This document shows positions 1 through 47,371 of a stretch of 64,000 nucleotides of DNA, one piece after another. This stretch comes from a virus. A model generated the notes under the pieces. It was not told where the DNA came from, made no database searches, and was given only the letters and a program-made list of their open reading frames with translations. Location: positions 43,054 through 107,053 of the IMG/VR virus record IMGVR_UViG_3300036790_000500; one strand, given 5' to 3'. How positions within the stretch are numbered: the first letter of the stretch is position 1; every line of letters starts with the position of its first letter. The translations under genes and the position numbers were made by a program.

Positions 1-111
1 TCCCTTAGTGAGATGGAGGAGATGGTGCGAACGTTCCTTGCAACGCCGTTCGGTGAGGGTCGTCATGCCGCTCGCGTGGATAAGGTTTGGCGGCTGGAGC
101 GTCGTCCGTGA
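1..111 (+). CDS. Ribose-5-phosphate isomerase B-like protein, C-terminal fragment
   Basis: The window opens inside this reading frame; only the last 36 residues are present. They contain a TPFGEGRHAARVDK stretch that matches the conserved C-terminal end of RpiB/LacA-family sugar-phosphate isomerases (typically TpFegGRHxrRvxKI). RpiB interconverts ribose 5-phosphate and ribulose 5-phosphate; relatives act on other aldose/ketose phosphates. The stop codon TGA (109-111) overlaps the GTG start of the next gene in a GTGA junction, so the two are probably translationally coupled. Its position at the head of a sugar kinase and transaldolase cassette supports the call. The catalytic residues lie outside the window, so substrate cannot be judged. 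Confidence 0.6.
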   Translation, partial: SLSEMEEMVRTFLATPFGEGRHAARVDKVWRLERRP

Positions 112-995
112 GACTCACCGTCATCGGCGACGCCATCGAGGACGAGGTCGTTGACCTCGAGGTCCTGCATGAGGGAGCCGAGGGCCAACCCACGTATCGA
201 GAGGTTCGTCGACGTCTCATGGCCGGTGGGGCCGCGAACGTTGCTAAGCACTGCGCTCGTCTCGGGGCCCATGTTTACCTCGTTCACAGCGGAAAGCCGG
301 AGACGTTCAAGGACGACCTCACGCTGCGAGAGTCGCTGCAAATCATGCAAAACTACGAGGTCGGTCAGGGGTCGGGTCCCCGTGCCGTCATTCGCAAGAC
401 GCGGTATTATTGCGGTGACAGGAAGGTGTTGAAGGTCAACCATCCACCCGAGTGCGAGACGCAGGGGCCCGATGTCACCAGTCAAATGTTGCTCTATGGA
501 CACACTGATGCCGTGCTTGCCTGTGACAACGGTCACGGCTTCTTTAACCAAGAGAATGCCCAAGAATTGGTCCGCCTGTGTGACCGCCGAAGCATTCCTT
601 TGTTTGTAGACTGTCAGGCATCCAGCGGGAGTCCATGCTTCGAGCGATGGTTTGGAGCCAACTCTGTCTTCGTTAACAAGGATGAGGCGGAGCACCTCGG
701 GGCGGCGTGCTCTCGGTTTGAGAACGTTCACTATAAGTGCGGTTTTGCCGGTTCACGCCTCGTCAACCGGAGTACCCCTCCATATGTTCGCGAAGTATGC
801 GGCGGATACTCGGTCAAGGTCGTTGATGCAGTCGGGGCCGGCGACGCCTACATGGCCGCCTGGGCTGTCCATGGAAACCTGAACCTCGCTAACGCCTGGG
901 CGGCCCTCTCCTGTAAGCGAAGGGGAACCGAGTTGCCGGAACTCTCTGAGATTGGAGAAATAGATGCGTCTCTTGCTCGATACGGCGAACCTTGA
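108..995 (+). CDS. PfkB-family sugar (phosphate) kinase
   Basis: A 295-residue ribokinase-fold protein. The N-terminus (RLTVIGDAIEDEV) is the first beta strand of PfkB kinases, followed by a GGAANVAKHCARLGA segment that corresponds to the sugar-binding glycine motif. Near the C-terminus DAVGAGDAYMAA is the PfkB signature with the anion hole and catalytic Asp (GAGD). The closest functional group by eye is the RfaE1/HldA heptose-kinase-like branch, as for the second kinase at 6071. I chose GTG at 108 because it gives the GTGA overlap with the upstream gene and has a GGAG about 10 bases upstream; a TTG at 87 in the same frame is possible. The sugar substrate is inferred from context only. Confidence 0.8.
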   Translation: MRLTVIGDAIEDEVVDLEVLHEGAEGQPTYREVRRRLMAGGAANVAKHCARLGAHVYLVHSGKPETFKDDLTLRESLQIMQNYEVGQGSGPRAVIRKTRYYCGDRKVLKVNHPPECETQGPDVTSQMLLYGHTDAVLACDNGHGFFNQENAQELVRLCDRRSIPLFVDCQASSGSPCFERWFGANSVFVNKDEAEHLGAACSRFENVHYKCGFAGSRLVNRSTPPYVREVCGGYSVKVVDAVGAGDAYMAAWAVHGNLNLANAWAALSCKRRGTELPELSEIGEIDASLARYGEP

Positions 996-1629
996 TGACG
1001 TCAAGCGCTTTGCACAGAATGATGCCATAGCCGGCGTTACCACTAACCCGTCCCTTGTCGCGAGGGAGCAACGGGCCAACTACTTCTCACTCCTGCGTTC
1101 AATCGCTGACGTATTGGGACCGTCTCCGCATCTGAGTGTCGAGGTCATTACCCTTGACCCGGACATAATGTTAAAGCAGGCGGACAGCCTCCATGAACTC
1201 ATTCCTTGTGCGGCAATCAAGGTCCCAGTCCTCCCTGAAACGCTTCGGGTCATCACTCGTTTGCATGACATGAAGATAGCCGTGAATGCGACCGCCTGCT
1301 TCACAGCGCTTCAGGCAAAGATTGCTGAGGATGCGGGTGCGGACTTCGTCTCGTTTTTCTTCAATCGAATGATAGATGCAAAAAGCGGGCAGAGTAATCC
1401 ACGTGAGCACGCTCTCGCTGAGATTTCGACATACAAGCATCGCTTCTGTAGACAGGCCAAGGTCATTTGCGGTAGCATCAGAGAGCCGCTCGACATTCAG
1501 GACTGCTGGGCAAACGGTGCAGACTTCGTGACGGCATCGGCCAAGGTTATCGACCGCGCCGTCACACACGTGAAGACGACCGAGAGCGTGCAGCAGTTTC
1601 AGAAGGACATCGAAGCATGGCTCGCATAA
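964..1629 (+). CDS. talC: TalC-type transaldolase / fructose-6-phosphate aldolase
   Basis: A 221-residue protein of the small transaldolase (TalC/FSA) group, a TIM-barrel class I aldolase. The start MRLLLDTANLDDVKRF and GVTTNPSLVAREQ are the family's N-terminal signatures. The Schiff-base lysine should be the Lys of AIKVPVL. Length matches the family (about 215-220). VICGSIREPLDIQDCWANGADFVTAS corresponds to the conserved late strand that reads ASxR in most members; here it reads GSIR. The segment SFFFNRMID replaces the usual SPFxGRxxD, an unusual active-site-loop change. Transaldolases move a dihydroxyacetone unit and can form sedoheptulose 7-phosphate, which would link RpiB and the heptose-type genes here. 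It overlaps the kinase gene by 32 bases. Transaldolase genes are known auxiliary genes of T4-like cyanophages. Confidence 0.82.
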   Translation: MRLLLDTANLDDVKRFAQNDAIAGVTTNPSLVAREQRANYFSLLRSIADVLGPSPHLSVEVITLDPDIMLKQADSLHELIPCAAIKVPVLPETLRVITRLHDMKIAVNATACFTALQAKIAEDAGADFVSFFFNRMIDAKSGQSNPREHALAEISTYKHRFCRQAKVICGSIREPLDIQDCWANGADFVTASAKVIDRAVTHVKTTESVQQFQKDIEAWLA

Positions 1630-1997
1630 GCAAGAGGACGCTGGCAGAGCGTCATATCCAGGCCCGCGGATGGGGCCGAGAGCATTGGATTGAGAACCTT
1701 CCAGAGTATTGCGGGAAGATACTCGTGATTGACCCGGGAAAGCGCGGCTCATTTCACTTCCATCAAAACAAGATGGAAACGATGCTGGTTATTAAGGGAG
1801 CAATGCGGCTCAGGCTGCTCGACACCGACACGGCAGAGGAGTACTTTCAGGTGCTTATAGAGAACGAAAGCATTCTGCTTAAGCCAGGCCAACCCCATCA
1901 GATAATCAACGATTACAGTGACGAGGAGTTGGTGGTCATCGAGTTCAGCACCATCCATGAGGAGACCGACAGTAAACGCATTCAGAAGGGGGACTGA
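1617..1997 (+). CDS. Small cupin-domain protein (mannose-6-phosphate isomerase type II-like)
   Basis: A 126-residue single-domain cupin. GSFHFHQNKMETMLVIKGAMRLRLLD is the first cupin motif: H-x-H followed by Glu supplies metal ligands. KPGQPHQIINDYSDEELVVIEFST is the second motif with its His. The fold is that of the C-terminal half of type II mannose-6-phosphate isomerase/GMP and of small sugar-phosphate isomerases or epimerases. The start ATG overlaps the end of the transaldolase gene by 13 bases. In this operon it most likely isomerises or binds a sugar phosphate, but the exact reaction cannot be read from the sequence. Confidence 0.72.
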   Translation: MARISKRTLAERHIQARGWGREHWIENLPEYCGKILVIDPGKRGSFHFHQNKMETMLVIKGAMRLRLLDTDTAEEYFQVLIENESILLKPGQPHQIINDYSDEELVVIEFSTIHEETDSKRIQKGD

Positions 1998-2000
1998 GGA

Positions 2001-2924
2001 ATGCGTTTCAATATGGTGGGAGCCTTTCTTCGCAACTTCCCGTTTGGGACGGAAATCGCCTTCGCGAAGGGCCTCGAGCGCCGCGGCCACACGGTCCATC
2101 GCATCGACCCGGGATATCCGAACCAGGTCTGGGACGATGACGCCGACGCCACGATAGTCTTCAAGTGGATTGACCTCGGTCTGAAAGACGTCTACGAGCG
2201 GCTCGAACGCTGTGCCGGTCTGAAGGTCGTCTACCAGCCCGACGACGCCAGGTTTCCACACATCAAGGAGATGATAAGGGGGATGCGTGGCTTCTGTACG
2301 CACCTGCTGTCGTTCGATGACTACGGCGCGGAATACGCGTTGACCGTCGGATACCTCGATGCGGAGACGCTGCGAGTGACCGCCGATGATGAACTGTACT
2401 GTCCCGACTCGAATGTGGAGCGGGACATCGACGTTTCGTTCGTGGGTAGCCTGACCGCTGGCCCGAACCACGCCTCCCGCATGGAGATGTGTCGCCTGGT
2501 ACAGGCCTGGGCGAACGCTAACGGTAAGACCACGTGGTTCGGGGAGACGTACTTCAGCGTTCCCGGCTACCCCTCTCCACTCGACATCTACAGGCGCTCC
2601 AAGGTCGTTCTTAATCATGCGACGGACGTTGGTCAGCCGTTCGGATGGGGGCACGGTTTTCAGTGCAGACACTTTGAGGTGGGGATGGCCGGAGTGTTCC
2701 TGCTCTCGAACATGGTGTATGGGGAACGGTTTGAACTGCTCCATACCCAGTATGGAAACGAGACCCAGTTAATCAACAAGTTGGAAACATACCTCGGCAC
2801 CGGTGGAGGGGTTCTCTTTGACCGAGAGGTCCTCGCAGGCTTCCATCGCAATAACATTCTTCGTGAACACATGCCGGAGCATCGCGCTGACCAGATAGTG
2901 AGTTTCGTCAAGAGGAACACGTGA
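2001..2924 (+). CDS. Glycosyltransferase, CgeB/GT-B-like
   Basis: A 307-residue protein that begins MRFNMVGAFLRNFPFGTEIAFAKGLERRGH, a typical GT-B Rossmann start with a glycine-rich loop. ERDIDVSFVGS and YRRSKVVLNHATDVGQPFGWGHGFQCRHFEVGMAGVFLLS resemble the core of CgeB-like glycosyltransferases, in which the C-terminal half binds the nucleotide sugar. The stop overlaps the next gene in a GTGA junction. With a second glycosyltransferase two genes downstream and nucleotide-sugar genes beyond, it probably transfers a phage-made sugar to a host envelope glycan, a virion protein or modified DNA. The acceptor cannot be told from sequence. Confidence 0.65.
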   Translation: MRFNMVGAFLRNFPFGTEIAFAKGLERRGHTVHRIDPGYPNQVWDDDADATIVFKWIDLGLKDVYERLERCAGLKVVYQPDDARFPHIKEMIRGMRGFCTHLLSFDDYGAEYALTVGYLDAETLRVTADDELYCPDSNVERDIDVSFVGSLTAGPNHASRMEMCRLVQAWANANGKTTWFGETYFSVPGYPSPLDIYRRSKVVLNHATDVGQPFGWGHGFQCRHFEVGMAGVFLLSNMVYGERFELLHTQYGNETQLINKLETYLGTGGGVLFDREVLAGFHRNNILREHMPEHRADQIVSFVKRNT

Positions 2925-3553
2925 GGAACATCGCAGACACTGGGGTTGGTTGTAAACTGAATCTCGGTTGCGGGGACGACGTGCGAGAGGGACACGTTAA
3001 CGTCGACTTTAGGCAGACCCATCCGAACGTCATCATCGCCGACCTCTCCAGGTTTCCCTGGCCGTTCGCTGATGCTTGCGCCTCACAGGTCCTGATGCTG
3101 GACTTTCTTGAGCATTTCCCATGGGCCCAGACGGCGCAGATACTACTTGAGTGCTATCGGGTGCTTGAGCCGAGTGGGGTCGTGGTGGTCCAGGTCCCGG
3201 ACGCCCTTCATACGACCCGGGCCCTGACGCAACGGGGGCACTACCGCTGCAACCGATGTGGCGCGGGGTTCCATGACGGCGAGGTCACGGGCACACGACC
3301 TGGGTGCCCTGGGTGTGGACAGACCAGGGACGAGGTCTCCGAGGTCGCCATGCGAAGGTTCTACGGCGGTCAGGACTACCCGGGAAACTGGCATCAGACC
3401 TGTTTCACGGAGCAGATGTTGAGGTCGAAGGCCAAGGCCGCAGGCCTGGAGCAAATCGAGCGTGGAACACACGACGCTAAGGCCGGCGACGACGAACATT
3501 ACTGGGCGAACTGGACGCTGCACATGACGTTCAGGAAGGGTGACTTGTGGTAG
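2921..3553 (+). CDS. SAM-dependent methyltransferase with inserted zinc ribbon
   Basis: A 210-residue class I methyltransferase. LNLGCGDDVREGHVNVD is motif I (SAM-binding GxG) with the acidic residue at the end of strand 2. LDFLEHFPWAQTAQILLECYRVLEPSGVVVVQVPD covers motifs IV to VI. After the core, CNRCG and CPGCG form a CxxC...CxxC zinc ribbon inserted before the last helix and strand. The gene starts with GTG in a GTGA overlap and ends 7 bases inside the next glycosyltransferase gene. Placement between two glycosyltransferases suggests O-methylation of a sugar or capping of a glycan. Confidence 0.72.
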   Translation: MRNIADTGVGCKLNLGCGDDVREGHVNVDFRQTHPNVIIADLSRFPWPFADACASQVLMLDFLEHFPWAQTAQILLECYRVLEPSGVVVVQVPDALHTTRALTQRGHYRCNRCGAGFHDGEVTGTRPGCPGCGQTRDEVSEVAMRRFYGGQDYPGNWHQTCFTEQMLRSKAKAAGLEQIERGTHDAKAGDDEHYWANWTLHMTFRKGDLW

Positions 3554-4617
3554 AAGACCGCTCCCGAAACCTCCGCGTCGCCTTCGTCGGTCAGTCCCGC
3601 TCCCCTAACGACATGCCTGAGGGGTATTGGCCAACGTTCTTGAAGTTCCATATGGAACTCCCGTATTACTTTGCCATGAACGCTCCGATGGACGTGACCG
3701 TCACCACGACGGAGCCGGTCACGCACGAGTTCGAGAGCAATCTAGGCTCACTTCGCTGCATCACTGAGGATGAGTTCTGTGACAATCCGCAGACCGGGAT
3801 GAACTACGACGTCGTCGTGCACTGGCGGAAGTGGTTCGAGTCCCTGTACTGCATGGGCGGACGGAACGTCATCCTCTCCCAGGACCACTCGTACTCCCGT
3901 GACTGGTTGGAGACGGCCAAGGACGCCTATGTCGATGGCCTACTCGACGGCGTCCTGGTCTTCCCGACTTGGCATCGACGCAACACGGAACGCGAACTGA
4001 CCGGGGTCCTGCCCTCCAGCCGCCTCTACGAGGGTCTGACCTTCGGCGTGGACACCTCTGTCTATTACCCCATGGAGAAGGACCCCTTCCATCTCCTGTG
4101 GGCCTCCGACCCCGGCAGGGGCCTCGATGACTTCATCAACCCGTTCCTAAGGCTCTGGCAGCGCGACCGCCGGTTCCGCCTGACGGTGACCTATCCGGAC
4201 TACGTGAGGCCCGAGGCAGTCGCTCGGTTCTCAAGTTTTCTATCGCATCCGGCCGTTAGCCATCGGCCGAGACTACGCAACGGCCCTGAACTCTGGAACC
4301 TCTTCAACTCGGCCGGCTTCCTGCCGTATTCCTCCAATTTTCCAGAGCCGTCGAGCCGTTGCCATCGCCAGGCCATGGCCGCCGGCTGCTGCGTGCTCTA
4401 TCCCCCGAACATGGGAACGCCGTCCGAGACCATCGAGAGCGGTTTGACGGGAGTAATCGAGAGTCCTCGGCTCTGGTCTGACGTGATACCTACGCTTGTG
4501 AAAACCGGACAGTGGGAGGAACTCGGGCATAACGCTCGCGTGTTCGCTCACTCCGAGAGGTGGGCGGTCCAGGCCCAGCGTTTCTACGACTTCTTCTCCA
4601 GGGGACTCCAGCAGTGA
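3547..4617 (+). CDS. Glycosyltransferase, GT-B fold (group 1/CgeB-like)
   Basis: A 356-residue protein starting at GTG. The C-terminal half holds the recognisable part: HLLWASDPGRGLDDFINPF, followed by EPSSRCHRQAMAAGCCVLYP and GTPSETIESGLTGVI. This is the donor-binding alpha/beta/alpha pattern of GT4 and CgeB-like enzymes (E...AMA.G...v...n.G..E.i..g..G.). A KWFESLYCMGGRNVILSQDHSYS segment lies in the N-terminal acceptor domain. It overlaps both neighbours and so belongs to the same transcription unit. Donor and acceptor are unknown; the nucleotide-sugar enzymes downstream may supply the donor. Confidence 0.68.
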   Translation: MVEDRSRNLRVAFVGQSRSPNDMPEGYWPTFLKFHMELPYYFAMNAPMDVTVTTTEPVTHEFESNLGSLRCITEDEFCDNPQTGMNYDVVVHWRKWFESLYCMGGRNVILSQDHSYSRDWLETAKDAYVDGLLDGVLVFPTWHRRNTERELTGVLPSSRLYEGLTFGVDTSVYYPMEKDPFHLLWASDPGRGLDDFINPFLRLWQRDRRFRLTVTYPDYVRPEAVARFSSFLSHPAVSHRPRLRNGPELWNLFNSAGFLPYSSNFPEPSSRCHRQAMAAGCCVLYPPNMGTPSETIESGLTGVIESPRLWSDVIPTLVKTGQWEELGHNARVFAHSERWAVQAQRFYDFFSRGLQQ

Positions 4618-5603
4618 TTGACATCCAAGCCGAGGACTTCGTCCAGGCATTCGACATGACCCAGGCCACGGTCGGCCAGGTCGGTTACGGCTTCATTGGA
4701 AACGCAGTCGTTGAGTTGTTTCGACCGCACTGTCAAGTTGCGGTTTACGACAAGGCCGGCTACGGGGGCAAGGAGCGTCCACCCAATGTCACGCTTTGCG
4801 AGGACCTCGACGGCGTCGTGGCTAACGCTGAGGTCGTCTTCGTGGCCGTTCCGACCCCGATGAAGCCGTCGGGTGAGTGTCACACGGGCATCGTCGAAGC
4901 GGTGCTTCAAGACATCCAGAACTCCGCCGTTCGCATCGGTCGGGATGTGATGTCGTTCATCGTGGTCATCAAGAGCACGATGCCACCGGGCTTCACGGCG
5001 CGGATGCAGGAGAGGTACGCGCTCCGCATCCTCTTCTCTCCCGAGTTCCTGACGGAGGCGAACGCGGTCCAGGACTTTAAGAAGGCCAATCGCGTGATTC
5101 TCGGCGGTGAGGTAGAGGACGCTCGGGTCGTCTTCAAGTACTTCGAGGGAGTGTGGCCGGACCGCCAGCCGAACACTTGGATAAACGGCGAGGGAGGCCA
5201 CCCAGACGGACCGGTACAGGTCATTCAATGCGACAGCACCGAGGCCGAGATGGTCAAGTTGTCGACTAACGTTCACCTGACGGCAAGGGTAATGGTCTCC
5301 AACGAACTCTATCAAATCTGTCAGAAACTGGGAATCGACTACGACACCGTGCGACTGCTCACGCAACTTGACCGTCGCATCGGTCTCAGCCACATGAATG
5401 TGCCGGGTCCGGACGGTTCCCTGGGGTTCGGAGGCCATTGCTTCTGGAAAGACACACAGAGCCTTAAGTTCATTACGGAAAATCTGGGGACTCTCGGTCT
5501 ATCTGGTCGCTCTATCTTTCACACTCTCGTTGAGAGAAATCTTGAAATTCGTGAAGACCGTGACTGGGAAAAGCAACCCGGCAGGGCGGTCATCAATGAG
5601 TGA
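4614..5603 (+). CDS. UDP-glucose/NDP-sugar 6-dehydrogenase-like protein
   Basis: About 329 residues. GQVGYGFIGNAVVELF is the N-terminal NAD-binding Rossmann loop. VPTPMKPSGECHTGIV and SPEFLTEANAVQDFKKANRVILGG are UDP-glucose dehydrogenase family motifs. AEMVKLSTNVHLTARVMVSNEL contains the conserved Lys/Asn pair, and GFGGHCFWKD carries the catalytic Cys. The enzyme oxidises C6 of an NDP-hexose to the carboxylate in two NAD-dependent steps. At about 330 residues it is shorter than the usual 390-450, so the C-terminal UDP-binding domain is reduced or absent. GTG at 4614 gives the GTGA overlap with the preceding gene; ATG at 4656 (MTQATVGQVGYG) is an alternative start. Confidence 0.8.
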   Translation: MIDIQAEDFVQAFDMTQATVGQVGYGFIGNAVVELFRPHCQVAVYDKAGYGGKERPPNVTLCEDLDGVVANAEVVFVAVPTPMKPSGECHTGIVEAVLQDIQNSAVRIGRDVMSFIVVIKSTMPPGFTARMQERYALRILFSPEFLTEANAVQDFKKANRVILGGEVEDARVVFKYFEGVWPDRQPNTWINGEGGHPDGPVQVIQCDSTEAEMVKLSTNVHLTARVMVSNELYQICQKLGIDYDTVRLLTQLDRRIGLSHMNVPGPDGSLGFGGHCFWKDTQSLKFITENLGTLGLSGRSIFHTLVERNLEIREDRDWEKQPGRAVINE

Positions 5604-6069
5604 GCGGTTTACGATTAACCTCGATGAACTCGAGTTCAACGGAGAGGCTGGGCTGCTGACCAACGTTCGTGGCCGCTGCATCGTGGCCAACGGCTGCTTC
5701 GACATCATCCATCCCGGTCATCTCTCTCTCCTCGCTAGCCTCGACACGCTGGCCTACCAGATGAAGTTGCGGCCCATCGTGGCCATGAACTCGGACGCTT
5801 CAGTTCGACGATTGAAGGGCGACGCCCGACCGATAGTCCCCCAGGAGAGCCGGTCCCTCCTCATCAACTCCCTGAAGTGGCCCCTGACGGTGGTCCTCTT
5901 TGACGAGGACACACCGCAACGGTTGATGGACGTGTTGCAGCCGGCCGCCGTTCTCAAGGGCTCCGAGTACCCGAAGGAAGCCGTGATACGATGGAGGGAC
6001 AGCCAGGTCGTCACGGTGGACATGGTCCCCGGGTGGTCGACCTCAAGGATAGTCGGCGATACGAGGTAA
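5596..6069 (+). CDS. RfaE2/HldE C-terminal-like nucleotidyltransferase
   Basis: A 157-residue single-domain cytidylyltransferase-like protein. VANGCFDIIHPGHLSLL contains the HxGH nucleotide-binding motif, VAMNSDASVRRLKG is the second conserved block, and WSTSRIV is the late ISTT-like motif. These are the hallmarks of RfaE domain II (HldC/HldE-C), which attaches AMP or another nucleotide to a heptose or glycerol phosphate. ATG 5596 lies 8 bases inside the dehydrogenase gene; longer in-frame starts would run into that gene and were not used. Together with the kinase that follows it reconstitutes the two halves of HldE as separate proteins. Confidence 0.82.
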   Translation: MSERFTINLDELEFNGEAGLLTNVRGRCIVANGCFDIIHPGHLSLLASLDTLAYQMKLRPIVAMNSDASVRRLKGDARPIVPQESRSLLINSLKWPLTVVLFDEDTPQRLMDVLQPAAVLKGSEYPKEAVIRWRDSQVVTVDMVPGWSTSRIVGDTR

Positions 6070-6070
6070 G

Positions 6071-7027
6071 TTGAAGAGGGTTCTGGTCATCGGGGACGTC
6101 ATCAAGGACGTCTACACCGACTGCGTTTTTAGAAAGATGTGTCCGGACGCGCCGACGGTCCCCGCGGCTCTCGTCGACCGAACTTCCTTCCGGCCCGGGG
6201 GTGCAGCGAACGTTGCCCTGAACATCGCCCAATTGGCACCCGGCGTCCACGTCGACCTAATCGGCGTCGTCGACGTGGACCTAAAGCGAACCATCGGAGC
6301 CATTTCTGAACAGATGGTTGCAATGGATTGGGCGGTCCTCGGGAGCCCCCTCGAGAAAAACCGTGTCTCCGTTGACGGTGAACTTCGGTTGCGTCTCGAC
6401 GACCAGGGAAAACTAAACCCCTGGTACGGCAGCCACATCGCCCTCAACCTGAGGGACTACCTCGGCTACGTCACTCCAGACCTCATAGTCTTGTCTGAGT
6501 ACGCCGGAGGGACGGTGGATGACCAATCCCTGGACCTTCTGCTTGAGCATCGCTCGAGGCTCCTGGTGGACACTAAGCGGACGGACCTATCGGTCTTCGC
6601 CGTGGGGGGCCAGTCCACCCTGCTTTGCAAACTGAACCATGAGGAGTGGATGAACGTCGTCAAGACCGATTCGACCCCTGAAGGCCACTTCAAGTACCTC
6701 GTCGTGACGGAGGGTCGAGCCGGGTCCGTCCTCCGTCGAATGGAGCGGTTGCTCGCGTCCCAGACAGGGGTCACCGTTGCCCGACACATCACCCATACGC
6801 TTCGAGTCTCGGCCGTCATGGCCGAGACGGTTGACGTCTGTGGCTGCGGGGACACGTACCTAGCCGGCATGGTCGCATCGCTCCTGGACAACGCGGACCC
6901 GTACACCGCCATGCAGTTCGGTGCCGCCGCCGCGGCCACCGTCGTCACGAAGCCTCGGGTCGCTGTGGCGGACCGCGCACTCACCCTGCAGATACTTGGA
7001 AGGACTCACGAAGATGAAACTCTCTAA
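6071..7027 (+). CDS. PfkB kinase, RfaE1/HldA-like (heptose 7-phosphate kinase type)
   Basis: A 318-residue ribokinase-fold enzyme starting at TTG with GAGG just upstream. RVLVIGDVIKDVYTDCVF and RPGGAANVALNIAQL are the N-terminal motifs shared with HldA/RfaE1; the C-terminal signature reads VDVCGCGDTYLAGM. The usual GAGD is GCGD, but the catalytic Asp is kept. In the HldA pathway the kinase makes heptose 1,7-bisphosphate, a phosphatase removes the 7-phosphate, and the nucleotidyltransferase encoded immediately upstream activates the product. No isomerase (GmhA) or phosphatase (GmhB) is seen in the window, so host enzymes or upstream genes must complete such a route. This is the second PfkB kinase in the cassette. 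Confidence 0.78.
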   Translation: MKRVLVIGDVIKDVYTDCVFRKMCPDAPTVPAALVDRTSFRPGGAANVALNIAQLAPGVHVDLIGVVDVDLKRTIGAISEQMVAMDWAVLGSPLEKNRVSVDGELRLRLDDQGKLNPWYGSHIALNLRDYLGYVTPDLIVLSEYAGGTVDDQSLDLLLEHRSRLLVDTKRTDLSVFAVGGQSTLLCKLNHEEWMNVVKTDSTPEGHFKYLVVTEGRAGSVLRRMERLLASQTGVTVARHITHTLRVSAVMAETVDVCGCGDTYLAGMVASLLDNADPYTAMQFGAAAAATVVTKPRVAVADRALTLQILGRTHEDETL

Positions 7028-33751: not shown

Positions 33752-36700
33752 ATGCGCATAGCCCATGTCTCGGACTTACACTTAAGGAACAGCAAGTATC
33801 GCTCGGAGTACGCAGTGGCCCTACACCGGCTCCAGCGACAACTCGCTGACCTGCAGCCGGACCTCATCGTCAACACCGGTGACACGGTCCACAGCAAACT
33901 CGCGGTCTCCCCGGAACTCTTCGATGACGTTGCGAAGCACATGCAGGAGATGACCCGAGTTGCCCCGTATTGGCTCATCCTCGGAAATCACGACCTAAAC
34001 CTGAAGAACAAGAGCAGGATGGACGCGATATCACCCGTCGTGAACGCGCTCCAGGGTTCGACCGCGAACCAATTGAAACTTCTCGAACCGGGAATGCATC
34101 GGGCCCCGGGAGGCCTCAATCACGGTTTCATCCTTTGGAACTATTGCATCAAGGGTCACGACGCCGCGGCCATCGACCCGCATCCGGACGACATCAACAT
34201 CGGTCTATACCACGGTTCAATCTCCGGCTGCGTGACTGACATCGGCTTCACCATGGAGGACGGAGAGGCCGAGGTCTCCAAGTTTGACGCCATGGACTAC
34301 GTGCTGTTGGGTGACATCCACAAGCGTCAGTCGTTCCGGGGAGGTCGGATGCAGTATCCGGGTTCACTCATTCAGCAGAACTACGGGGAGGAACTCGTGA
34401 AGGGGTTCCTCCTCTGGGACATCAAGTCAAAGACCGAGTTCACGTGTGACTTCCATCCGGTCGAGGCCCCGGGCCGGTTCCATACGATTCAGGTTCCGGC
34501 CTCCCTGGACCTGAGCACCCACGTCGTTCCCGCGGGTTCCCGCCTGCGGGTCCTCGTTGAGGGGGACCTGACCCCCTCGAAGCGGCTTCAACTGGAGCGT
34601 GACGTTCGAGAGCGGTACCAACCCCTTGAGGTCATCGTACCGGACGCCTCCGCCGAGCGAACCCAGGAGCCGACCGACATCGATAGGTTGATTGCCGACC
34701 GTCGCGCCGTCGCGACGGAGTACCTCGAGGAACACGGCTTCACGGACGTGGCCAACGAGGCCCTCAGGCTCTTCACGGAACACGAGCAAAGCATCGAAGA
34801 GGAGGCCAGTGCCCCGGCCTACGGTACGACTTGGAGCCTGAAGCGGGTGGCCTGGGACAACGTGTTGAACTACGGCGAAGGCAACTCGATTGACCTAACG
34901 AACCTCAAGGGGGTCGTCGGCATCTTCGCCCCCAACGCGGCCGGAAAGTCGTCGATATTCGACGTGATACTACAGGCCCTGTTCGATAAGGTGACCAAGG
35001 ACGTCCCCAAGAACATCGACGTCGTGAACGACAACAAGGACCGCGCTACCATGGAGGTCGAGTTCGAGGCCGGCGGCACGCCCTATTCGATTCGTCGTGA
35101 AATCGAACGAATTAGTTTCGGTCAACGAACGATGAGTGAGACCAAGCAGTGGGGCAAGACCACTCTCGACTTCACTTCCGTTGACGACGACCTGAACGGC
35201 ACTTCCAGGCCTGAGACCGAGCGTCACGTTAGGTACCTGATAGGAACGTTCGAGGACTTCTGCCTCACGACGATGGTCAGTCAGAACCCGATATTCGCCC
35301 TGCCCGGAGGCGGTGACGTCGTCAACTGCAAGGAGACCGACCGACGCAAGATACTGTTTCGATTTCTGCAGTTAGATGTCTACGAGCGGGTCCTGAGCCG
35401 CGTGAAAGACGAACTGAAGACCCTGATGGGCCGTCTGAGCGGTCTCGACCCTGTGAAGTTGCAGATGGAGTTGCTGGCTCTAATCGAGGAGAAGAAGGGA
35501 CGCGAGCGGGAGGTCCCCGGGTTCGAGCGAACAATCGCTCGACTTGAGACAGACCTCAAGGAAGCGGCCGCGGCGTTAGAGCGCACCGACATCAAGCACA
35601 CAATCGCTGCGATTAAGGATAAAAAGCGATACGGGGCCGAACTCACGAAGGCCCAGACCCTACTCGCCGAGGCGGAGACCGAACTCCTTGCGAAGCGTCA
35701 CGGGCTTGAGGGCCTGCGCGCTTCGCTGGCGCACCTCGGCGAACGCCCACCTGAGCCTGAAATCACCCTCGCGGACCTGACTGCGGAACTCGAACGGGTG
35801 CGAGAGCGTCGGGAGACGACGAAGCGTCGTCGGTCCCTACGGCTCGCGGAGATGTCCACGGGCCAAGAGGCGCTGCGGACCCTGGATGACATCCCGTGCG
35901 AGGGAAAGTTCCCCAGTTGCCGGTACATCGTCGATGCCACCGAGTTTGAGAAGATTGAATCCGAGGTCCAGGCGGCCATCGAGAACCTAACTGCGGACAT
36001 GGCGGTCGATGAGAATCGAGCGAATGGGCTCACTCAATTGAGGGTCATTCACGAGTTAGTTCAACGCTGGGACAGGGACCATAACCGGATTCAACTGTCG
36101 ATAGTTGAGGCGACGGCCGAACTGACCACCAAGGACTCAGTTCGCGCGACGTTGACCAATGAAGTTCATCGTTTACAGGCACTCCTCAAGGAGGCCGAGG
36201 ACATCCTCAGAGGCTCATCGAATGAGCAAGCGAGCGCGGCCCGTGACCTCCATGTCTCTCTCTCTTCAGAACTCAAGAGCGTGAAGCAGACTCACGCCGA
36301 CGCCTTGAAGAGCATCGGTGGATTGGAGGTCCATCTGATGAAGTTGCAGGGAGACGTTGACTCCCTAGAGGGTCTACGGGAGACCGTAAGGGTCCATGAG
36401 GCGGTGGTTCAACTCTGTGGAAAGAACGGTCTTCCCTACCGCATCCTCGCCATGGTGCTGCCGGTCATCAACGCAGAGATTGCAAAGATATTGACCGGCG
36501 TCGTGGGCTTCAACGTGTTCTTTGAGGACGACCCTGAGGAGCAGACCGTGCGTCTATACCTTCGGTATGGCGATTACAAGAGCCGTCCGTTGTCCCTATG
36601 CGGCGGCGCTGAGCGCTTCATCGCTGCCCTCGCGATTCGAGTGGCCCTTCTCAGCGTCTCATCCATTCCGAAGACTGACATTCTCATTATCGATGAGGGA

Positions 36701-36874
36701 TTCGGGAAACTTGACCCGGAAAACCTCGAGGCTCTACACCGGATGTTTGAATACCTAAGGCAGGCGTTCGGCACTATCTTTGTGGTCTCCCATGTGGATT
36801 TCATGAAGGACATCGTCGACCACTCGATTGAGATTACGAGTCAGGACGGATACGCACACGTGGAGGTCACATGA
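33752..36874 (+). CDS. Mre11-Rad50 (gp47-gp46/SbcD-SbcC) single-chain fusion
   Basis: 1040 residues in one uninterrupted frame. Residues 1 to about 330 are an Mre11/SbcD metallophosphoesterase: SDLHL (D8, H10), NTGDT (D44), GNHD (79-82), LYHGS and LLGDIHKRQ. From about 355 a Rad50/SbcC ATPase begins: Walker A GIFAPNAAGKSS (390-401), long charged coiled coils, a zinc-hook-like C-x6-C (CEGKFPSC), signature LCGGAERF (about 949-956) and Walker B DILIIDEGFGKLD (about 976-988). In T4 these are separate genes 47 and 46. The complex resects DNA ends to start recombination-dependent replication. The Rad50 signature has Cys for the usual Ser. The frame ends in ATGA overlap with the next gene. Confidence 0.85.
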   Translation: MRIAHVSDLHLRNSKYRSEYAVALHRLQRQLADLQPDLIVNTGDTVHSKLAVSPELFDDVAKHMQEMTRVAPYWLILGNHDLNLKNKSRMDAISPVVNALQGSTANQLKLLEPGMHRAPGGLNHGFILWNYCIKGHDAAAIDPHPDDINIGLYHGSISGCVTDIGFTMEDGEAEVSKFDAMDYVLLGDIHKRQSFRGGRMQYPGSLIQQNYGEELVKGFLLWDIKSKTEFTCDFHPVEAPGRFHTIQVPASLDLSTHVVPAGSRLRVLVEGDLTPSKRLQLERDVRERYQPLEVIVPDASAERTQEPTDIDRLIADRRAVATEYLEEHGFTDVANEALRLFTEHEQSIEEEASAPAYGTTWSLKRVAWDNVLNYGEGNSIDLTNLKGVVGIFAPNAAGKSSIFDVILQALFDKVTKDVPKNIDVVNDNKDRATMEVEFEAGGTPYSIRREIERISFGQRTMSETKQWGKTTLDFTSVDDDLNGTSRPETERHVRYLIGTFEDFCLTTMVSQNPIFALPGGGDVVNCKETDRRKILFRFLQLDVYERVLSRVKDELKTLMGRLSGLDPVKLQMELLALIEEKKGREREVPGFERTIARLETDLKEAAAALERTDIKHTIAAIKDKKRYGAELTKAQTLLAEAETELLAKRHGLEGLRASLAHLGERPPEPEITLADLTAELERVRERRETTKRRRSLRLAEMSTGQEALRTLDDIPCEGKFPSCRYIVDATEFEKIESEVQAAIENLTADMAVDENRANGLTQLRVIHELVQRWDRDHNRIQLSIVEATAELTTKDSVRATLTNEVHRLQALLKEAEDILRGSSNEQASAARDLHVSLSSELKSVKQTHADALKSIGGLEVHLMKLQGDVDSLEGLRETVRVHEAVVQLCGKNGLPYRILAMVLPVINAEIAKILTGVVGFNVFFEDDPEEQTVRLYLRYGDYKSRPLSLCGGAERFIAALAIRVALLSVSSIPKTDILIIDEGFGKLDPENLEALHRMFEYLRQAFGTIFVVSHVDFMKDIVDHSIEITSQDGYAHVEVT

Positions 36875-39004: not shown

Positions 39005-40684
39005 ATGCGCAAGGCCTCCGTCAAGGAGGAGATTATCAAGTGCGGACTGGACCCGGCGTACTTCATCAACAAGTACGTTAAGATTAGGCATCCCGTTCGC
39101 GGTCTCATTCCGTTTAAACTATTTGAGTACCAGGGCAAGACCCTCGAGTTCTTCAGAAAGAAGCGCTTCAACGTCGTTCTGAAGCCTCGGCAGATGGGCT
39201 TCACCGAACTCACGGCCGCGTTCATCACGTGGCTGATGCTCTTTCACCCGAACCAGTCGATTCTGGCCCTCGCGACCAAGTCCGACACCGCGAAGCAAAT
39301 CGTTCGCCGGTGTCGAGTGGCCCTGAAGTCGCTTCCGAGGTGGCTCCTAATCGCTGACATCACGACCGACAACAAGACCGGTCTTGAGTTGGCCAATGGG
39401 TCGTTCGTGAAGGCCGTCAGCAAGTCGGCCGACGCCGGTCGTTCGGAGGCGCTGTCGCTCCTGGTCGTTGACGAGGCGGCGCACATCGAGGGCTTCGATG
39501 ACATCTGGACCGGCATCAAGCCGACCATCTCCGCCGGCGGTCGAATCATCATGCTCTCGACGCCGAAGGGCGTTGGCAACGTGTACCACCAGACCTACAC
39601 CGAGGCCTTGGAGGGCAGGAACGACTTCAACCCGATTCGGGTTGACTGGTGGGAGCATCCCGAGCACGTCGAGGAACTCACCCTTGACCCGAAGACCAAC
39701 AAGTACACCTCGAAGTGGTTCAAGCGGGAGACCAAGGGCTTCTCCCAGCGACAGATTGCGCAGGAGTACGAGTGCGAGTTCCTGGGTTCGGGTGACACGT
39801 TCTTCGCGCCTGAGGACATCGCCCGCATCATGCAGACCCAGGTCGAACAGTCCATGGACGAAGGCCTGCATGTCTACGCTGAGCCCCTGCCGGGACGCAA
39901 GTACATCCTCGGGATTGACTCCGCGACCGGCCGCGCCTTCGATTGCGGCGGCGTCCAGGTCATCGACATTGAGTCCATGGACCAAGTGGCCGAGTTGAAC
40001 GTCCACCAACTGCCCAATGACTTCGCCCAGGCCCTGATGGCGCTGGGCTACAGGTACAACACCGGACTCCTGGTTGTGGAGAACAACGCCGTCGGAATGG
40101 CGGTCATCGAGCACATCAAACTCGCGGGCTACCCGAACTTCTTCTACTGCAAGAAGGGGACCAAGGCCGGCGACAAGTTGGGGGAGTCAGGCAACGCCGC
40201 CGAGGGGTCGATGCCCAAGGACTTCATTCACGGCGTAATGACCCTCGGACCGAACCGCTCCTTCATGCTTAGCAAACTTGAGGAGTTCATTCGGACCGGC
40301 ATCGTTCGCGTCCGTAGTCCCCGCTTTCGAGCGGAGATGGAGACGTTCGTATGGAACGGTGACCGGGCGGAGGCCCGGAGCGGTAAACGCGACGACCTCA
40401 TCATGGCCATGGCCCTGGCCGTCTGGGTCCGTGACAACATCTACGGCGGGGTCTATAACACCCCGGGCCTAGCTGCGGCCATGATGAACGCCATGAAGAT
40501 TAACCGGACCCAGAACACCCAGGTCCAAGGGGCATCCAAGAACCCAGACCACGTTCCGGTGCGGTCCATGGGCACCTTCAACATCAGCACCTCGGCCAGA
40601 CCACATGTGGTTCCGCTGCCGAGCGGTCGAGGCTACATAGACCTCATGGCTGAGATGGGCATGTACGTTCCGAGGAGGCGCTGA
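39005..40684 (+). CDS. gp17: Terminase large subunit (gp17)
   Basis: 559 residues. The ATPase domain has an arginine-type Walker A (LKPRQMGFTELTA, residues about 59-71, with GFT instead of GKT), Walker B with Glu (LLVVDEAAHIEG) and a coupling motif (IIMLSTPKG). The nuclease domain has RNase H-like acidic motifs ILGIDSATG, LLVVENN and KRDDLIMAMALAVW. It pumps and cuts DNA at the portal. The ORF shares TGATG with the portal gene. T4 gp17 is 610 residues. Confidence 0.93.
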   Translation: MRKASVKEEIIKCGLDPAYFINKYVKIRHPVRGLIPFKLFEYQGKTLEFFRKKRFNVVLKPRQMGFTELTAAFITWLMLFHPNQSILALATKSDTAKQIVRRCRVALKSLPRWLLIADITTDNKTGLELANGSFVKAVSKSADAGRSEALSLLVVDEAAHIEGFDDIWTGIKPTISAGGRIIMLSTPKGVGNVYHQTYTEALEGRNDFNPIRVDWWEHPEHVEELTLDPKTNKYTSKWFKRETKGFSQRQIAQEYECEFLGSGDTFFAPEDIARIMQTQVEQSMDEGLHVYAEPLPGRKYILGIDSATGRAFDCGGVQVIDIESMDQVAELNVHQLPNDFAQALMALGYRYNTGLLVVENNAVGMAVIEHIKLAGYPNFFYCKKGTKAGDKLGESGNAAEGSMPKDFIHGVMTLGPNRSFMLSKLEEFIRTGIVRVRSPRFRAEMETFVWNGDRAEARSGKRDDLIMAMALAVWVRDNIYGGVYNTPGLAAAMMNAMKINRTQNTQVQGASKNPDHVPVRSMGTFNISTSARPHVVPLPSGRGYIDLMAEMGMYVPRRR

Positions 40685-43600
40685 TGGCCGGTGAAGAGAC
40701 AGTCTGGCGCAGGCTAACGCGGCTGTTCCGCAGCGGGCCCATCGTCCGCCATAAGATTGCGAACGGCGAACGCCTCCAGGAGCCGCAGGGCACGGCCCGG
40801 GCCTTCAAGAAGGAACTGAGTTCGCTCTACGTCCGAGCCCTGGCCTCCTACGCCAACTACGAGCGGCTCTCGAGATACTGCGTCACAGGAGACACTCTTG
40901 TTGCAGTGAACCTCGAGGAGGGGAACATCCGCATCGATGAACTCGTTCAAAGAGTTGCAAACGGCGAGGACATTCGGGTCTTTTCGTATGACAACTCACG
41001 TGATGAGTTAGTTGCGACTCCCATCGAAAGGGCGGTATGCAACGGTGAACGGGAAGTCTGTGAAGTTGAACTAGACGATGGAAGCGTCATTCGCTGCACC
41101 CCTGACCATCGTTTCATGCTGCGCGACGGAACGTATCGTGAGGCCAAGGACCTCACACCGAGCACAGCACTCATGCCGTTCCACCGCAAGGAGTGGGGCG
41201 GCAAGCGCGGCGAGTACCGGTACGTCTACTCGTACTCCCGCGGATGGGTTCCAGAGCACGTCATTGTCGCCGAGAGCGTCACCGGTGAGCGGTACGTCCG
41301 CGAGGGCGGCATCCACATCCACCACAAGAACTTCAAGCACCGTGACAACAGAGCGGACAATCTTCAACCGCTGCCGGCCGCCGACCACCTGGCGCTTCAC
41401 GCCCGTATCAACAACAAGCGCTTCGAGGACCCAACGGAACGGGAGAAGCAGGCGGAGCACGCGCGACGTCGATGGGCCACCGGAGGTGACCTCAGGACGT
41501 CACAGGAGAATGGCTCCATTGTGTCTGAGCGAGGTCGGGAGGCGCACCGTGCCTGGATGGTGGACTTCAATAAGAAGAACAAACCGGGGACAGGCAATGC
41601 AGGACGGACCGACCAGGTCGGTCTCGATAACGCCAACGCAGACAAGTCACTGACCTATCAGACCATCTGTGACGCGTATCGTCCCAACATGGAACTATCG
41701 ACGCTCTGCTCTCAGGTCGGAGCGTCTCGATACAAGGTCCTCAAGCGTCTAAAATGGGCCGGCTTCCAATCATTCGACGACTTCGAAGAGAACTACACCA
41801 ACCACAAAGTCGTCGCGGTGCGCATGACTGGAGCAGTCGAAAAGGTCTACGACCTCACCGTCGCACCCCATCATAACTTCGCTATCTCATCGCAGAGTGG
41901 AAAAAGTTTAATAATAATCCACAACAGCGATTACAACGAAATGGAGTATACACCCGAGTTGCACTCGGCCCTTGACATCTACTCCGACGAGGCCACAGTC
42001 AAGAACGACGACGGCAACGTAGTGGAGGTCACGTCCAGGAACGCAGAGATAAAGGAGGTCCTCGAGACCCTGTTCTTCGACATCCTGAACCTCAACTTCA
42101 ATGCCTGGTCGTGGATGCGGCATTTCTGTAAATTTGGCGATTTCGTCCTCTTCGTGGACGCTGACGAGGAGCACGGCATCCTCAACCTGGTGCCGATTCC
42201 CATCAATGAAATCGAGCGTGAGGAGGGCTTCGACGCCAAGGACCCGCTGGCGGTCCGCTTCCGCTGGCTCACCCGCGGCAACACTATTCTGGAGAACTGG
42301 CAGGTCGTGCACTTCCGTCTCCTCGGAAACGATGCCTACCTGCCATACGGGTCGTCCGTCCTCGAGCCGGCCCGTCGCATCTGGCGGCAGTTGATTCTCA
42401 TCGAGGACGCGATGCTCGTCTACCGCGTCGTTCGCTCCCCCGAGCGGCGCGTGTTCCACATCGAGGTCGCGAACACGCCACCGGACCAGATTGATGCCTT
42501 CATCGAACAGGTGAAGACCCAACTCAAGCGCAACACAATCGTCGATAACGAGACCGGCCGCGTCGACCTCCGGTACAATCCGCTGTCTGTGGAGGAGGAC
42601 TACTTTCTGCCGAAGCGCGGCGACGTTCAGTCCCAGATAGACACCCTGGCCGGCGGACAGTTTCCAGTACGCCGAGATACCCTTATTCCATTGCTCGATG
42701 GACGGCTCATCACCATCGAGCAGTTGGCCGCCGAGTACGACGACGGTAAGGAGAACTGGGTTCACTCAGTCAAATCCGGGTCGAACGCTTTCGTTCCGGG
42801 CAAGGTCGTTTGGTGCGGACGCAATTACGCCTGTGACCGCCTACACCGAGTTTGGTTGGACGATGGCTCATACGTCGACATGGCTCCTGAGCATCCAATC
42901 GTGATGCGTGACGGCAGTAGCAAGCGCGCCGATGAGGTCAAGCCCGGCGAAAGCGTCATGCCTTTTCGTTGCCGCCGTGAATGGCTCGGAGACCATGACT
43001 ACGAGATGGTCCAAGACACCGCCGATGACACGTGGAAGTTTATTCATCGACAGGTAGCCGGCCCTCATGGCATCTCTGAGGCCCACCTCCGTAGCGGTGA
43101 GGGCGCCGTGGCCCTTCACCACGTGGACTTCAATCGCTTCAATAATCGACCGGATAACCTCCGTTGGATGGGCCGGCTTGAGCACATCAGGTTGCATGGG
43201 GAGAACGCCGCTCGAAACCTCCACACGCCTGAGATGGACGCTGAGAATGCTCAGCGAATGATTGAGTACAACAGGTCTCCTGAAGGTCGAGCCGCCAGGG
43301 CCGCCCGGGATTTCCTCGATGTGACACCGGCCAATCATACCGTGCTCCGGGTCGAGATACTGGACGGCGTGACCGATGACGTCTTCTGCATGACCGTCGT
43401 CGGTCCTGACGGTGAGGACGACCGCCACAACTTCGCTGTCGTGACCAGGCTTCAAGACGGCTCCATCCCATCCAACTGGGGAGGACTGTTCGTAAAAAAC
43501 ACCGGAGACATTGATGACGTCCGGTACATCCAGTCGAAGATGTTCGCGGCCATCAAGATTCCTCGGGCGTATCTCGGGTACGAGGACCAGATTGGCTCGA

Positions 43601-44433
43601 AGTCGACCCTGGCGCAGGAGGACGTGAGATTCGCCAAGACGATTGAGCGCATCCAGTCCCTCTTCGTCTCCGAGTTGAACAAGATTGCCATCATTCACCT
43701 CTATCTGCTCGGCTATCAGGGCTCGGACCTGACGAACTTCGACATCACGCTGGCCTCCCCGTCGACGGTGGCAGAGCAACAGAAGTTGGAGTTGTGGCGG
43801 ATGAAGCTTGAGGTCGCGGGGATGGCCCAGGAGGGCGTCTTCGACCGCAACTTCGTGTATCGCAAGATATTCAGTCTAAACGACAAGCAGATTGCGGCCA
43901 TCAAGGACGGCAAGCGGACCGACAAACTGGAGGACGCCCTCCTGGAGTCGATTCAGGCGCCGCCGCCCCCCGGCGGTGAGCCCCCTCCGGCCGGCGGTCC
44001 TGAGCCCGAGCCGGCCGCTCCGGGAGCGGACGAGTTGCCGAACACCCTCGGCGGTCCCGCTCCCGGCGAGGGAGGTGGCGGAGGCGGTGAGCCGCCGCCG
44101 GTCACCGCCGGTCTCTCTCTCCCCGGCTCCGTGATGGCCGAGGCCAAGTTCAACCGCGGCTCGACCGGCAACCGGGCCGAGTTGGCCGTCGACAGGGGCC
44201 GCAACCTCTTCTCGACCGGTGAGGACCCCCTGAAACTGACCTTCGGGACCGAGAAGCAGACCGCGTCCGACCCGTACGACCGCCGAACCCGCAACCGCGG
44301 AATCACCCGACCGTTCTCCGAGACGTCCGCGGAACCGGACTTCGATGAGATGCCCGGCTCGTCCCAGGTGGACGAGGTTGAGGAGATGTTGCAGAAAGTT
44401 TCAGAGTGGCTTAACCGCCGAGACGGTCGCTGA
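40684..44433 (+). CDS. gp20: Portal protein gp20 interrupted by two inteins
   Basis: The 1249-residue precursor contains two inteins (349 and 279 residues). Removing them leaves about 621 residues, close to other gp20-type portals. Joined exteins read LSRY-SDYNEMEYTPELHSALDIYSDEA and LAGGQF-TGDIDDVRYIQSKMFAAIKIPRAYLG, the conserved portal core (GG...GxxDDVxYxxxKxxxAxxxP), so both insertions lie in conserved portal sites. Between them are FNAWSWMRHFCKFGDFVLFVD and VFHIEVANTPPDQ. After residue 1085 the tail is Pro/Gly-rich and variable. The portal forms the dodecameric DNA gate and packaging motor dock. Splicing is required for function. Confidence 0.9.
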   Translation: MAGEETVWRRLTRLFRSGPIVRHKIANGERLQEPQGTARAFKKELSSLYVRALASYANYERLSRYCVTGDTLVAVNLEEGNIRIDELVQRVANGEDIRVFSYDNSRDELVATPIERAVCNGEREVCEVELDDGSVIRCTPDHRFMLRDGTYREAKDLTPSTALMPFHRKEWGGKRGEYRYVYSYSRGWVPEHVIVAESVTGERYVREGGIHIHHKNFKHRDNRADNLQPLPAADHLALHARINNKRFEDPTEREKQAEHARRRWATGGDLRTSQENGSIVSERGREAHRAWMVDFNKKNKPGTGNAGRTDQVGLDNANADKSLTYQTICDAYRPNMELSTLCSQVGASRYKVLKRLKWAGFQSFDDFEENYTNHKVVAVRMTGAVEKVYDLTVAPHHNFAISSQSGKSLIIIHNSDYNEMEYTPELHSALDIYSDEATVKNDDGNVVEVTSRNAEIKEVLETLFFDILNLNFNAWSWMRHFCKFGDFVLFVDADEEHGILNLVPIPINEIEREEGFDAKDPLAVRFRWLTRGNTILENWQVVHFRLLGNDAYLPYGSSVLEPARRIWRQLILIEDAMLVYRVVRSPERRVFHIEVANTPPDQIDAFIEQVKTQLKRNTIVDNETGRVDLRYNPLSVEEDYFLPKRGDVQSQIDTLAGGQFPVRRDTLIPLLDGRLITIEQLAAEYDDGKENWVHSVKSGSNAFVPGKVVWCGRNYACDRLHRVWLDDGSYVDMAPEHPIVMRDGSSKRADEVKPGESVMPFRCRREWLGDHDYEMVQDTADDTWKFIHRQVAGPHGISEAHLRSGEGAVALHHVDFNRFNNRPDNLRWMGRLEHIRLHGENAARNLHTPEMDAENAQRMIEYNRSPEGRAARAARDFLDVTPANHTVLRVEILDGVTDDVFCMTVVGPDGEDDRHNFAVVTRLQDGSIPSNWGGLFVKNTGDIDDVRYIQSKMFAAIKIPRAYLGYEDQIGSKSTLAQEDVRFAKTIERIQSLFVSELNKIAIIHLYLLGYQGSDLTNFDITLASPSTVAEQQKLELWRMKLEVAGMAQEGVFDRNFVYRKIFSLNDKQIAAIKDGKRTDKLEDALLESIQAPPPPGGEPPPAGGPEPEPAAPGADELPNTLGGPAPGEGGGGGGEPPPVTAGLSLPGSVMAEAKFNRGSTGNRAELAVDRGRNLFSTGEDPLKLTFGTEKQTASDPYDRRTRNRGITRPFSETSAEPDFDEMPGSSQVDEVEEMLQKVSEWLNRRDGR
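40879..41925 (+). mobile_element. Intein 1 in the portal, class 1 with HNH endonuclease
   Basis: 349 residues from Cys66 (CVTGDTLVAV, block A) to Asn414 (IIIHN, block G with penultimate His), with Ser as +1 extein residue. Block B is CTPDHRFMLRDG (TxxH) and block F is KVYDLTVAPHHNFAIS. All residues for standard Cys-initiated splicing are present. In the middle, IHIHHKNFKHRDNRADNLQPL followed by DHLALH is an HNH homing endonuclease motif of the HxxN...H type, so this intein may be mobile. The DNA near the 3' junction is AT-rich (TTTAATAATAATCC). Placement is between conserved portal residues Tyr and Ser. Confidence 0.9.
42664..43500 (+). mobile_element. Intein 2 in the portal, atypical, with HNH endonuclease
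   Basis: 279 residues from Pro661 (PVRRDTLIPLLDG, block A) to Asn939 (GLFVKN, block G), followed by Thr. Block A has no Cys or Ser at position 1. Block B reads MAPEHPIVMRDG (Ala in the Thr position). Block F is DVFCMTVVGPDG...RHNFAV with Cys at F:4. The penultimate residue is Lys, not His. The Cys in block F is the nucleophile position of class 3 inteins, though the class 3 Trp after the block B His is not seen. VALHHVDFNRFNNRPDNLRWM followed by EHIRLH is an HNH motif. The exact N-boundary (Pro661) was set by aligning with portal GG...GDIDDV. Confidence 0.82.
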
Positions 44434-46765: not shown

Positions 46766-47371
46766 ATGGTCACCAACCGCCGAATCCTTCGTGAATGGGA
46801 GGCCTTGGTTCCCGACCGCGGCTTCATCGTGGAGTCGCGTGAGCAGAACAACGGTCGCCTGTTCCTCAGGGGGCCGATGCAGCGTGCCGAGGCCCCGAAC
46901 CAGAACAAGCGCATCTATCCCCGCAGCCTCCTCAGGCGTGAGTTCGAGAACTACCAGAAGCAGGTCCGGGAGGGACGGGCCACCGGTGAACTCGACCACC
47001 CTGAGACGTCAACGGTGAGCCTAGAGAAGGTCTCCCACGTCGTCCGGGAGATGGGATGGGAGGGCGACACCTGGGTCGGCCGAATTGAGGTCCTGCCGAC
47101 CCCCTGTGGGAAAATCGCCGAGACGTTAATCGAGTCCGGCATCACCCTCGGCATCTCTAGCCGAGGCGTCGGCAGCACGAGCACGAATGAGTCCGGTCTC
47201 GACATGGTGCAGGACGACTTCACCCTCGTAACCTTTGACCTCGTGCAGGAGCCGAGCACCCACGGTGCCTTCATGACCCTGGGTGAGTCCGTCGACCGGA
47301 GCGGAGGTCCGGTCCTGAGTCGCGCCGACCGCATCAATCGCGTGTTGAATGACATTAGGAGTCGCAAGTGA
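46766..47371 (+). CDS. gp21: Prohead core protease gp21
   Basis: 201 residues of the S78/herpes assemblin-type serine protease fold. GELDHPE (residues 74-80) carries the catalytic His78, GISSRGVGS (129-137) carries the nucleophile Ser, and DFTLVTFDLVQEPS is the conserved late block. GRLFLRGPMQRAEAPNQNKRIYP is the N-terminal family signature. It digests the scaffold and trims capsid proteins before packaging. T4 gp21 is 212 residues. Its end overlaps the next ORF by GTGA. Confidence 0.9.
   Translation: MVTNRRILREWEALVPDRGFIVESREQNNGRLFLRGPMQRAEAPNQNKRIYPRSLLRREFENYQKQVREGRATGELDHPETSTVSLEKVSHVVREMGWEGDTWVGRIEVLPTPCGKIAETLIESGITLGISSRGVGSTSTNESGLDMVQDDFTLVTFDLVQEPSTHGAFMTLGESVDRSGGPVLSRADRINRVLNDIRSRK

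Follow-up and report, generated by a model that had tools for sequence, protein, structure and literature searches.

A splicing mechanism of class 3, running through the cysteine at position 4 of block F (Cys F:4), is established in other inteins (PMC5222942, PMC4031507), and the class is defined by the WCT signature of Trp B:12, Cys F:4 and Thr G:5 (PMC5222942, PMC7891396). Described members include M. smegmatis DnaBi1, M. chimaera DnaB1 and the mycobacteriophage TerL inteins, in which no Cys, Ser or Thr is needed as residue 1. The split intein AceL NrdHF is an active class 3 intein (of MCT type) without Trp B:12 and without the G:6 and F:13 His (PMC7891396). Inteins are likewise known from the portal genes of cluster C1 mycobacteriophages (PMC5050341), where the survey found class 1 and WCT class 3 types only and no non-WCT type with proline as residue 1 (Pro1). 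Here we describe two inteins in the portal gene of a 64,000-nucleotide stretch of viral DNA (the window; positions 43,054 to 107,053 of the IMG/VR record IMGVR_UViG_3300036790_000500, a contig of 107,053 bp). It is likely that both splice out to leave a portal of 621 residues, the first by the class 1 route and the second by a class-3-like route through Cys F:4 which arose within the class 1 inteins of portal genes. The combination of Pro1 and Cys F:4 in intein 2, which an initial annotation made from the window alone had missed, is the interesting feature of the locus.

The open reading frame (ORF) of 1249 residues matches the portal profiles of Pfam and PHROG (Table 1) and also, in Pfam, Intein_splicing (1.8e-22) and, in two stretches, HNH_3 (1e-9). 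With a T4-type large terminase gene before it (39005-40684) and an S77 prohead protease gene after it (46766-47371), it is a T4-type (gp20) portal gene split by two in-frame HNH inteins. The initial annotation had placed these at Tyr65/Ser and GGQF/TGDIDD (slashes mark splice junctions) and had called for a comparison with intein-free portals, which bears out both sites: 14 relatives (L014-L027), of which six share 77-82% identity with the window portal, run uninterrupted through both junctions (e.g. ERLSRY/SDYNEM and LAGGQF/TGDIED). Intein 1 thus spans residues 66-414 (CVTGDT...IIIHN/S) and intein 2 residues 661-939 (PVRRDT...LFVKN/T). Both have blocks A, B, F and G, a C-terminal Asn and a nucleophilic +1 residue, and the HNH motifs that had been read in them are recovered by Pfam HNH_3 and PHROG HNH profiles. 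The G+C content of third codon positions is 0.68 in intein 1 and 0.67 in intein 2, while the exteins have 0.83, a difference consistent with the inteins having been acquired from elsewhere.

Intein 1 has the sequence of an ordinary class 1 intein, with Cys1, a TPDH block B that supplies Thr B:7 and His B:10, Asp F:4 and an HN/Ser end, and it would splice by the ordinary pathway, Cys1 acting before Ser+1. Intein 2 aligns with it along its whole length (PVRRDTL against CVTGDTL). Since intein 2 begins with Pro1 and this boundary is fixed by the empty sites, it lacks the N-terminal nucleophile of class 1. Nor does it resemble class 2, as the portal is not a KlbA orthologue, residue 1 is Pro rather than Ala and F:4 is Cys rather than Asp. 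What it does have is the core of class 3, a non-nucleophilic residue 1 together with Cys F:4 (block F, VFCMTV; block B, APEHPI; end, FVKN/T). A plain class 3 assignment was rejected because two of the three WCT positions fail. Pro1 as an unprecedented residue was also rejected, a WCT class 3 intein with Pro1 being present in the TerL of Petp2012.

At least 56-58 non-redundant Pro1 inteins make up the clade to which intein 2 belongs. Of the 81 viral loci matched by a profile built from six such inteins, the best 80 were kept. Every Pro1 intein found lies in a T4-type portal gene at one of three sites, which in the coordinates of the window portal are 132 (RN(L or M)/CKYGD), 285 (RYNP(L or M)/S) and 311 (GGQF/T), and their removal in silico rejoined the portal without a gap at 132/132, 285/285 and 311/311 in nearly every case. 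Cys F:4, Met F:5, His B:10 and His F:13 are each present in 58 of 58 non-redundant members, a WC pair at positions 50-51 in 57 and Ala B:7 in 49, while no member has a penultimate His (0/58) and none of 56 shows all three WCT residues. Block F carries a GExDRHNF insert, and wherever the junction was read the +1 residue is Ser, Cys or Thr. In the 72 Cys1/Ser1 portal inteins compared, Asp stands at F:4 in 46, Cys in 13, Thr in 7 and Asn in 5, and a penultimate His is found in 43; as the Pro1 clade is of single origin, the counts behind these residue associations are not independent. Three Pro1 mini-inteins (157, 165 and 175 residues) have lost the HNH domain and kept every splicing residue, which would be hard to explain unless splicing is maintained without homing. 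Cys51 of the WC pair, almost invariant in the clade, may act as a redox partner to Cys F:4 or have a structural role.

A scan of 84,980 prokaryote genomes with the Pro1 profile and the patterns used returned 35 pattern matches and no relative, and the isolated-phage matches examined were Cys1-type HNH inteins only, with no member of the Pro1 clade recognised. The profile also matched the HNH homing endonuclease 1u3e. In an alignment of six Pro1-type inteins, about 120 residues that follow the HNH motif in the same-site relative of L002 are absent from intein 2, so that its homing activity is doubtful and may be lost. The Pro1 inteins are apparently a large family that is undescribed in the open-licence literature searched; an earlier description in a subscription journal is possible, and the 1701 class 3 inteins that PMC7891396 defines operationally may include the clade.

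The models agree on a HINT fold. AlphaFold predicts intein 2 with its flanks confidently (predicted local distance difference test, pLDDT, 88.3; predicted template modelling score, pTM, 0.84) and the mini-intein of L098 with a pLDDT of 92.4 and a pTM of 0.87. The best Foldseek matches of the latter are inteins and bacterial intein-like (BIL) domains, with the class 1 inteins Ssp DnaB and Npu DnaE (target template modelling score, TM, ~0.85) ahead of the class 3 structures 6bs8 and 6riy (~0.76). The full-length model of intein 2 again finds inteins, more weakly (TM 0.2-0.8).

The question of origin was addressed with a careful maximum likelihood tree of 58 rows, built from 141 columns of the splicing blocks, on which our conclusions are based. 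Its class 3 references are retrieved real sequences, those of PDB 6rix and 6bs8 and of phage TerL and DnaB inteins obtained through a DnaB class 3-like query. The Pro1 inteins form a single clade (support 98/93). A Cys1 mini-intein that shares site 132 with some of them (L106-L109) is placed as their sister (99/90), and the two together are nested among Cys1 portal inteins. Apart from these stands a clade of the nine WCT class 3 references (100/100). Although it begins with Cys1, the L106 intein already shows Cys F:4, WC, Met F:5, EQDRHNF and an SN/C end, and it is plausible from these residues that it is a living intermediate. Basal Pro1 members, which also occupy site 132, have kept Thr B:7, and five of them have Trp B:12. 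Taken together, we lean towards the view that T4-type portals hold a second, independently evolved lineage of inteins initiating through Cys F:4 without WCT, with a Cys1 and Cys F:4 intermediate surviving at the same site. A class 1 HNH intein with Cys F:4 at the RN(L or M)/CKYGD site would have lost Cys1 and then spread to the two other portal sites.

This brings the comparison to the inteins on either side. WCT class 3 inteins have Cys F:4, His B:10, the terminal Asn and the HINT fold in common with the Pro1 clade, from which they differ in having mostly LAGLIDADG rather than HNH nucleases; the Pro1 inteins for their part have no penultimate His and frequently Cys+1. The class 1 HNH portal inteins (intein 1, the L106 mini-intein at site 132, those of L009 and L028 at site 285) share with the Pro1 inteins the gene, the HNH type and sometimes the site, and differ in Cys1 or Ser1, mostly Thr B:7 and often His G:6. 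Separately, the TerL intein of Acidovorax phage ACF1 (L111) clusters with the WCT class 3 inteins and shows Cys F:4 and a THN end, yet begins with Cys1, possibly as an intermediate or a reversion.

An unlikely alternative to a second origin is that the Pro1 inteins descend from within WCT class 3, having lost Trp and Thr and gained an HNH nuclease. The shared Cys F:4 and non-nucleophilic residue 1, the canonical WCT intein with Pro1 and the Trp B:12 of five basal members speak for such a descent. Mean identities of 20% to class 3, as against 47% to L106 and 37% to the Cys1 inteins at sites 285-349, argue the other way, as do the Cys1 sister at the same site, the nuclease type and a fold closer to class 1. 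Several of our own results nevertheless weigh against the independent, Cys F:4-dependent reading. Approximately unbiased (AU) tests do not reject a grouping of Pro1 with WCT class 3 inteins (p 0.19 and 0.28), and once the trait columns are removed the Cys1 sister comes to lie between basal Pro1 rows at low support. In intein 2 only the C of the signature is present, with Ile for Trp B:12 and Val for Thr G:5; there is no penultimate His (Lys G:6), B:7 is Ala, and splicing itself is predicted from sequence and model. An origin independent of WCT class 3 is favoured, not proved. The missing His and the Ala at B:7 mean that activation at both junctions must differ from the cases studied so far. 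AceL NrdHF, active without Trp B:12 and the penultimate His, is a precedent for the tolerance of such losses, although it keeps Thr G:5, is split, starts with Ala1 and does not reside in a portal.

Under the class-3-like mechanism that we prefer, Cys242 (F:4), with the help of His B:10, would attack the Phe-Pro bond at the N-junction to yield a block F branched thioester. The N-extein would then move on to Thr+1, and with cyclisation of Asn279 the exteins would be joined by amide formation. The main chemical rival is a class 2-like route in which the +1 residue attacks the N-junction directly. Pro1 can no more form a linear (thio)ester than residue 1 of class 2, a potential nucleophile stands at +1 in each member of the clade whose junction was read, and Cys F:4 by itself does not establish the route, since it also occurs in class 1 inteins (PMC4031507, and the 13 of 72 above). 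We nonetheless think this route improbable: class 2 as known is confined to KlbA orthologues, whose inteins have Ala1 and Asp F:4; the clade never departs from Cys F:4 while its Cys1 relatives vary there (Asp, Cys, Thr or Asn); and Ser or Thr, less nucleophilic than the Cys+1 of class 2, is often found at +1. It is more improbable still that intein 2 is decayed and splicing-defective, with the portal made without full splicing or the phage of this contig defective. The loss of Cys1 and of the penultimate His and the shortened endonuclease region could be read in this way, and a dead class 3-type intein is on record (Arth_1007, PMC3196547). That example, however, lost Cys F:4 and His B:10, both of which intein 2 retains; moreover mini-inteins and dozens of independent contigs keep the same residues, and the exteins are intact and conserved.

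The initial annotation had suggested that the two inteins, both needing excision before head assembly, could time or gate packaging. In favour of this, head assembly requires the portal at an early stage and other inteins are known to splice conditionally (e.g. PMC6195587), but we found no support for such a role and no regulatory evidence, and we regard it as very improbable. Close relatives lack both inteins, and together with the nuclease motifs and the foreign codon composition this fits selfish mobile elements whose removal by splicing is obligatory. The wider distribution fits repeated homing rather than a conserved packaging switch: portals in the set selected for Pro1 inteins have inteins at more than 20 positions, with up to five per gene, spread patchily and with homing-nuclease domains. 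T4-type portals are thus a strong intein hotspot. Two inteins in one structural gene had also been called unusual, which holds only in part: mycobacteriophage portal inteins are known, at least one intein was present in 6 of 70 full-length T4-type portals selected by portal sequence, and some portals have five.

Should a second origin prove true, it would run counter to the idea that class 3 chemistry arose only once and to the assertion that class 1 cannot give rise to it. The natural series from Cys1 with Cys F:4, through Pro1 with Thr B:7, to Pro1 with Ala B:7 makes the step from class 1 to an internal nucleophile testable residue by residue. The mini-inteins of 157-175 residues may in addition serve as Pro1, non-WCT splicing tools.

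Table 1. Coordinates of the portal gene, its exteins and its inteins in the window
Feature	Position	Strand	Basis
Portal (gp20-type) ORF with two inteins	40684..44433	+	Portal_T4 5.8e-67; PHROG 213 (portal) 6e-62
Portal N-extein, residues 1-65, ends SRY	40684..40878	+	alignment to intein-free L014-L027
Intein 1, 349 residues, class 1 type	40879..41925	+	Intein_splicing 4.1e-18; TIGR01445 2.4e-13; ends from empty sites
HNH_3 homing-nuclease motif, intein 1	41257..41388	+	Pfam HNH_3 6e-05; PHROG 7545 HNH 3.8e-09
Portal middle extein, 246 residues, SDYNEM...AGGQF	41926..42663	+	best stretch of Portal_T4; 46-90% identity to relatives
Intein 2, 279 residues, Pro1 / Cys F:4 type	42664..43500	+	NF052663 3.1e-20; pLDDT 88; Pro1 clade member
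Pro1 codon (CCA); Cys/Ser in class 1 inteins	42664..42666	+	sequence; invariant in clade
Cys51 (WC motif), clade-specific	42814..42816	+	57/58 Pro1 inteins vs 4/72 Cys1/Ser1
His77, catalytic His of block B (B:10), intein 2	42892..42894	+	invariant, 58/58
HNH_3 motif, intein 2	43111..43185	+	Pfam HNH_3 1.9e-05
Cys242, block F:4, putative first nucleophile	43387..43389	+	58/58 Pro1 inteins; mostly Asp in Cys1 relatives
Asn279 (C-terminus of intein 2) and Thr+1 of extein	43498..43503	+	sequence; in clade Asn, then Ser/Cys/Thr
Portal C-extein, TGDIDD...	43501..44430	+	alignment to relatives

The single portal genes of L067, L095/L096 and L090 hold five inteins each, and their ORFs of 2366-2578 codons would give a spliced product of ~500-780 residues. 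The L067 ORF (2578 codons) has two adjacent inteins at site 285 with no extein residue between them (RYNPM/CLSLGTH...ILLHN/CFQGSTRI...KVQSFQ/SVEED); the second, with an apparent Gln end, must probably splice first, restoring the Ser+1 of the first. The portal of a 484-kb uncultured phage (L029, LR756508.1) has three inteins, two of which are mini-inteins of 141-150 residues that lie ~12 residues apart.

Elsewhere in the window, an ORF of 1040 residues (33752-36874) combines a metallophosphatase (Mre11/gp47-like) with an AAA/SbcC Walker B domain (Rad50/gp46-like) and is of a fused gp46-gp47 type. The region 87-7027 encodes two PfkB-type kinases, a UDP-glucose/GDP-mannose dehydrogenase and a glycosyltransferase, possibly a nucleotide-sugar pathway in a T4-type phage.

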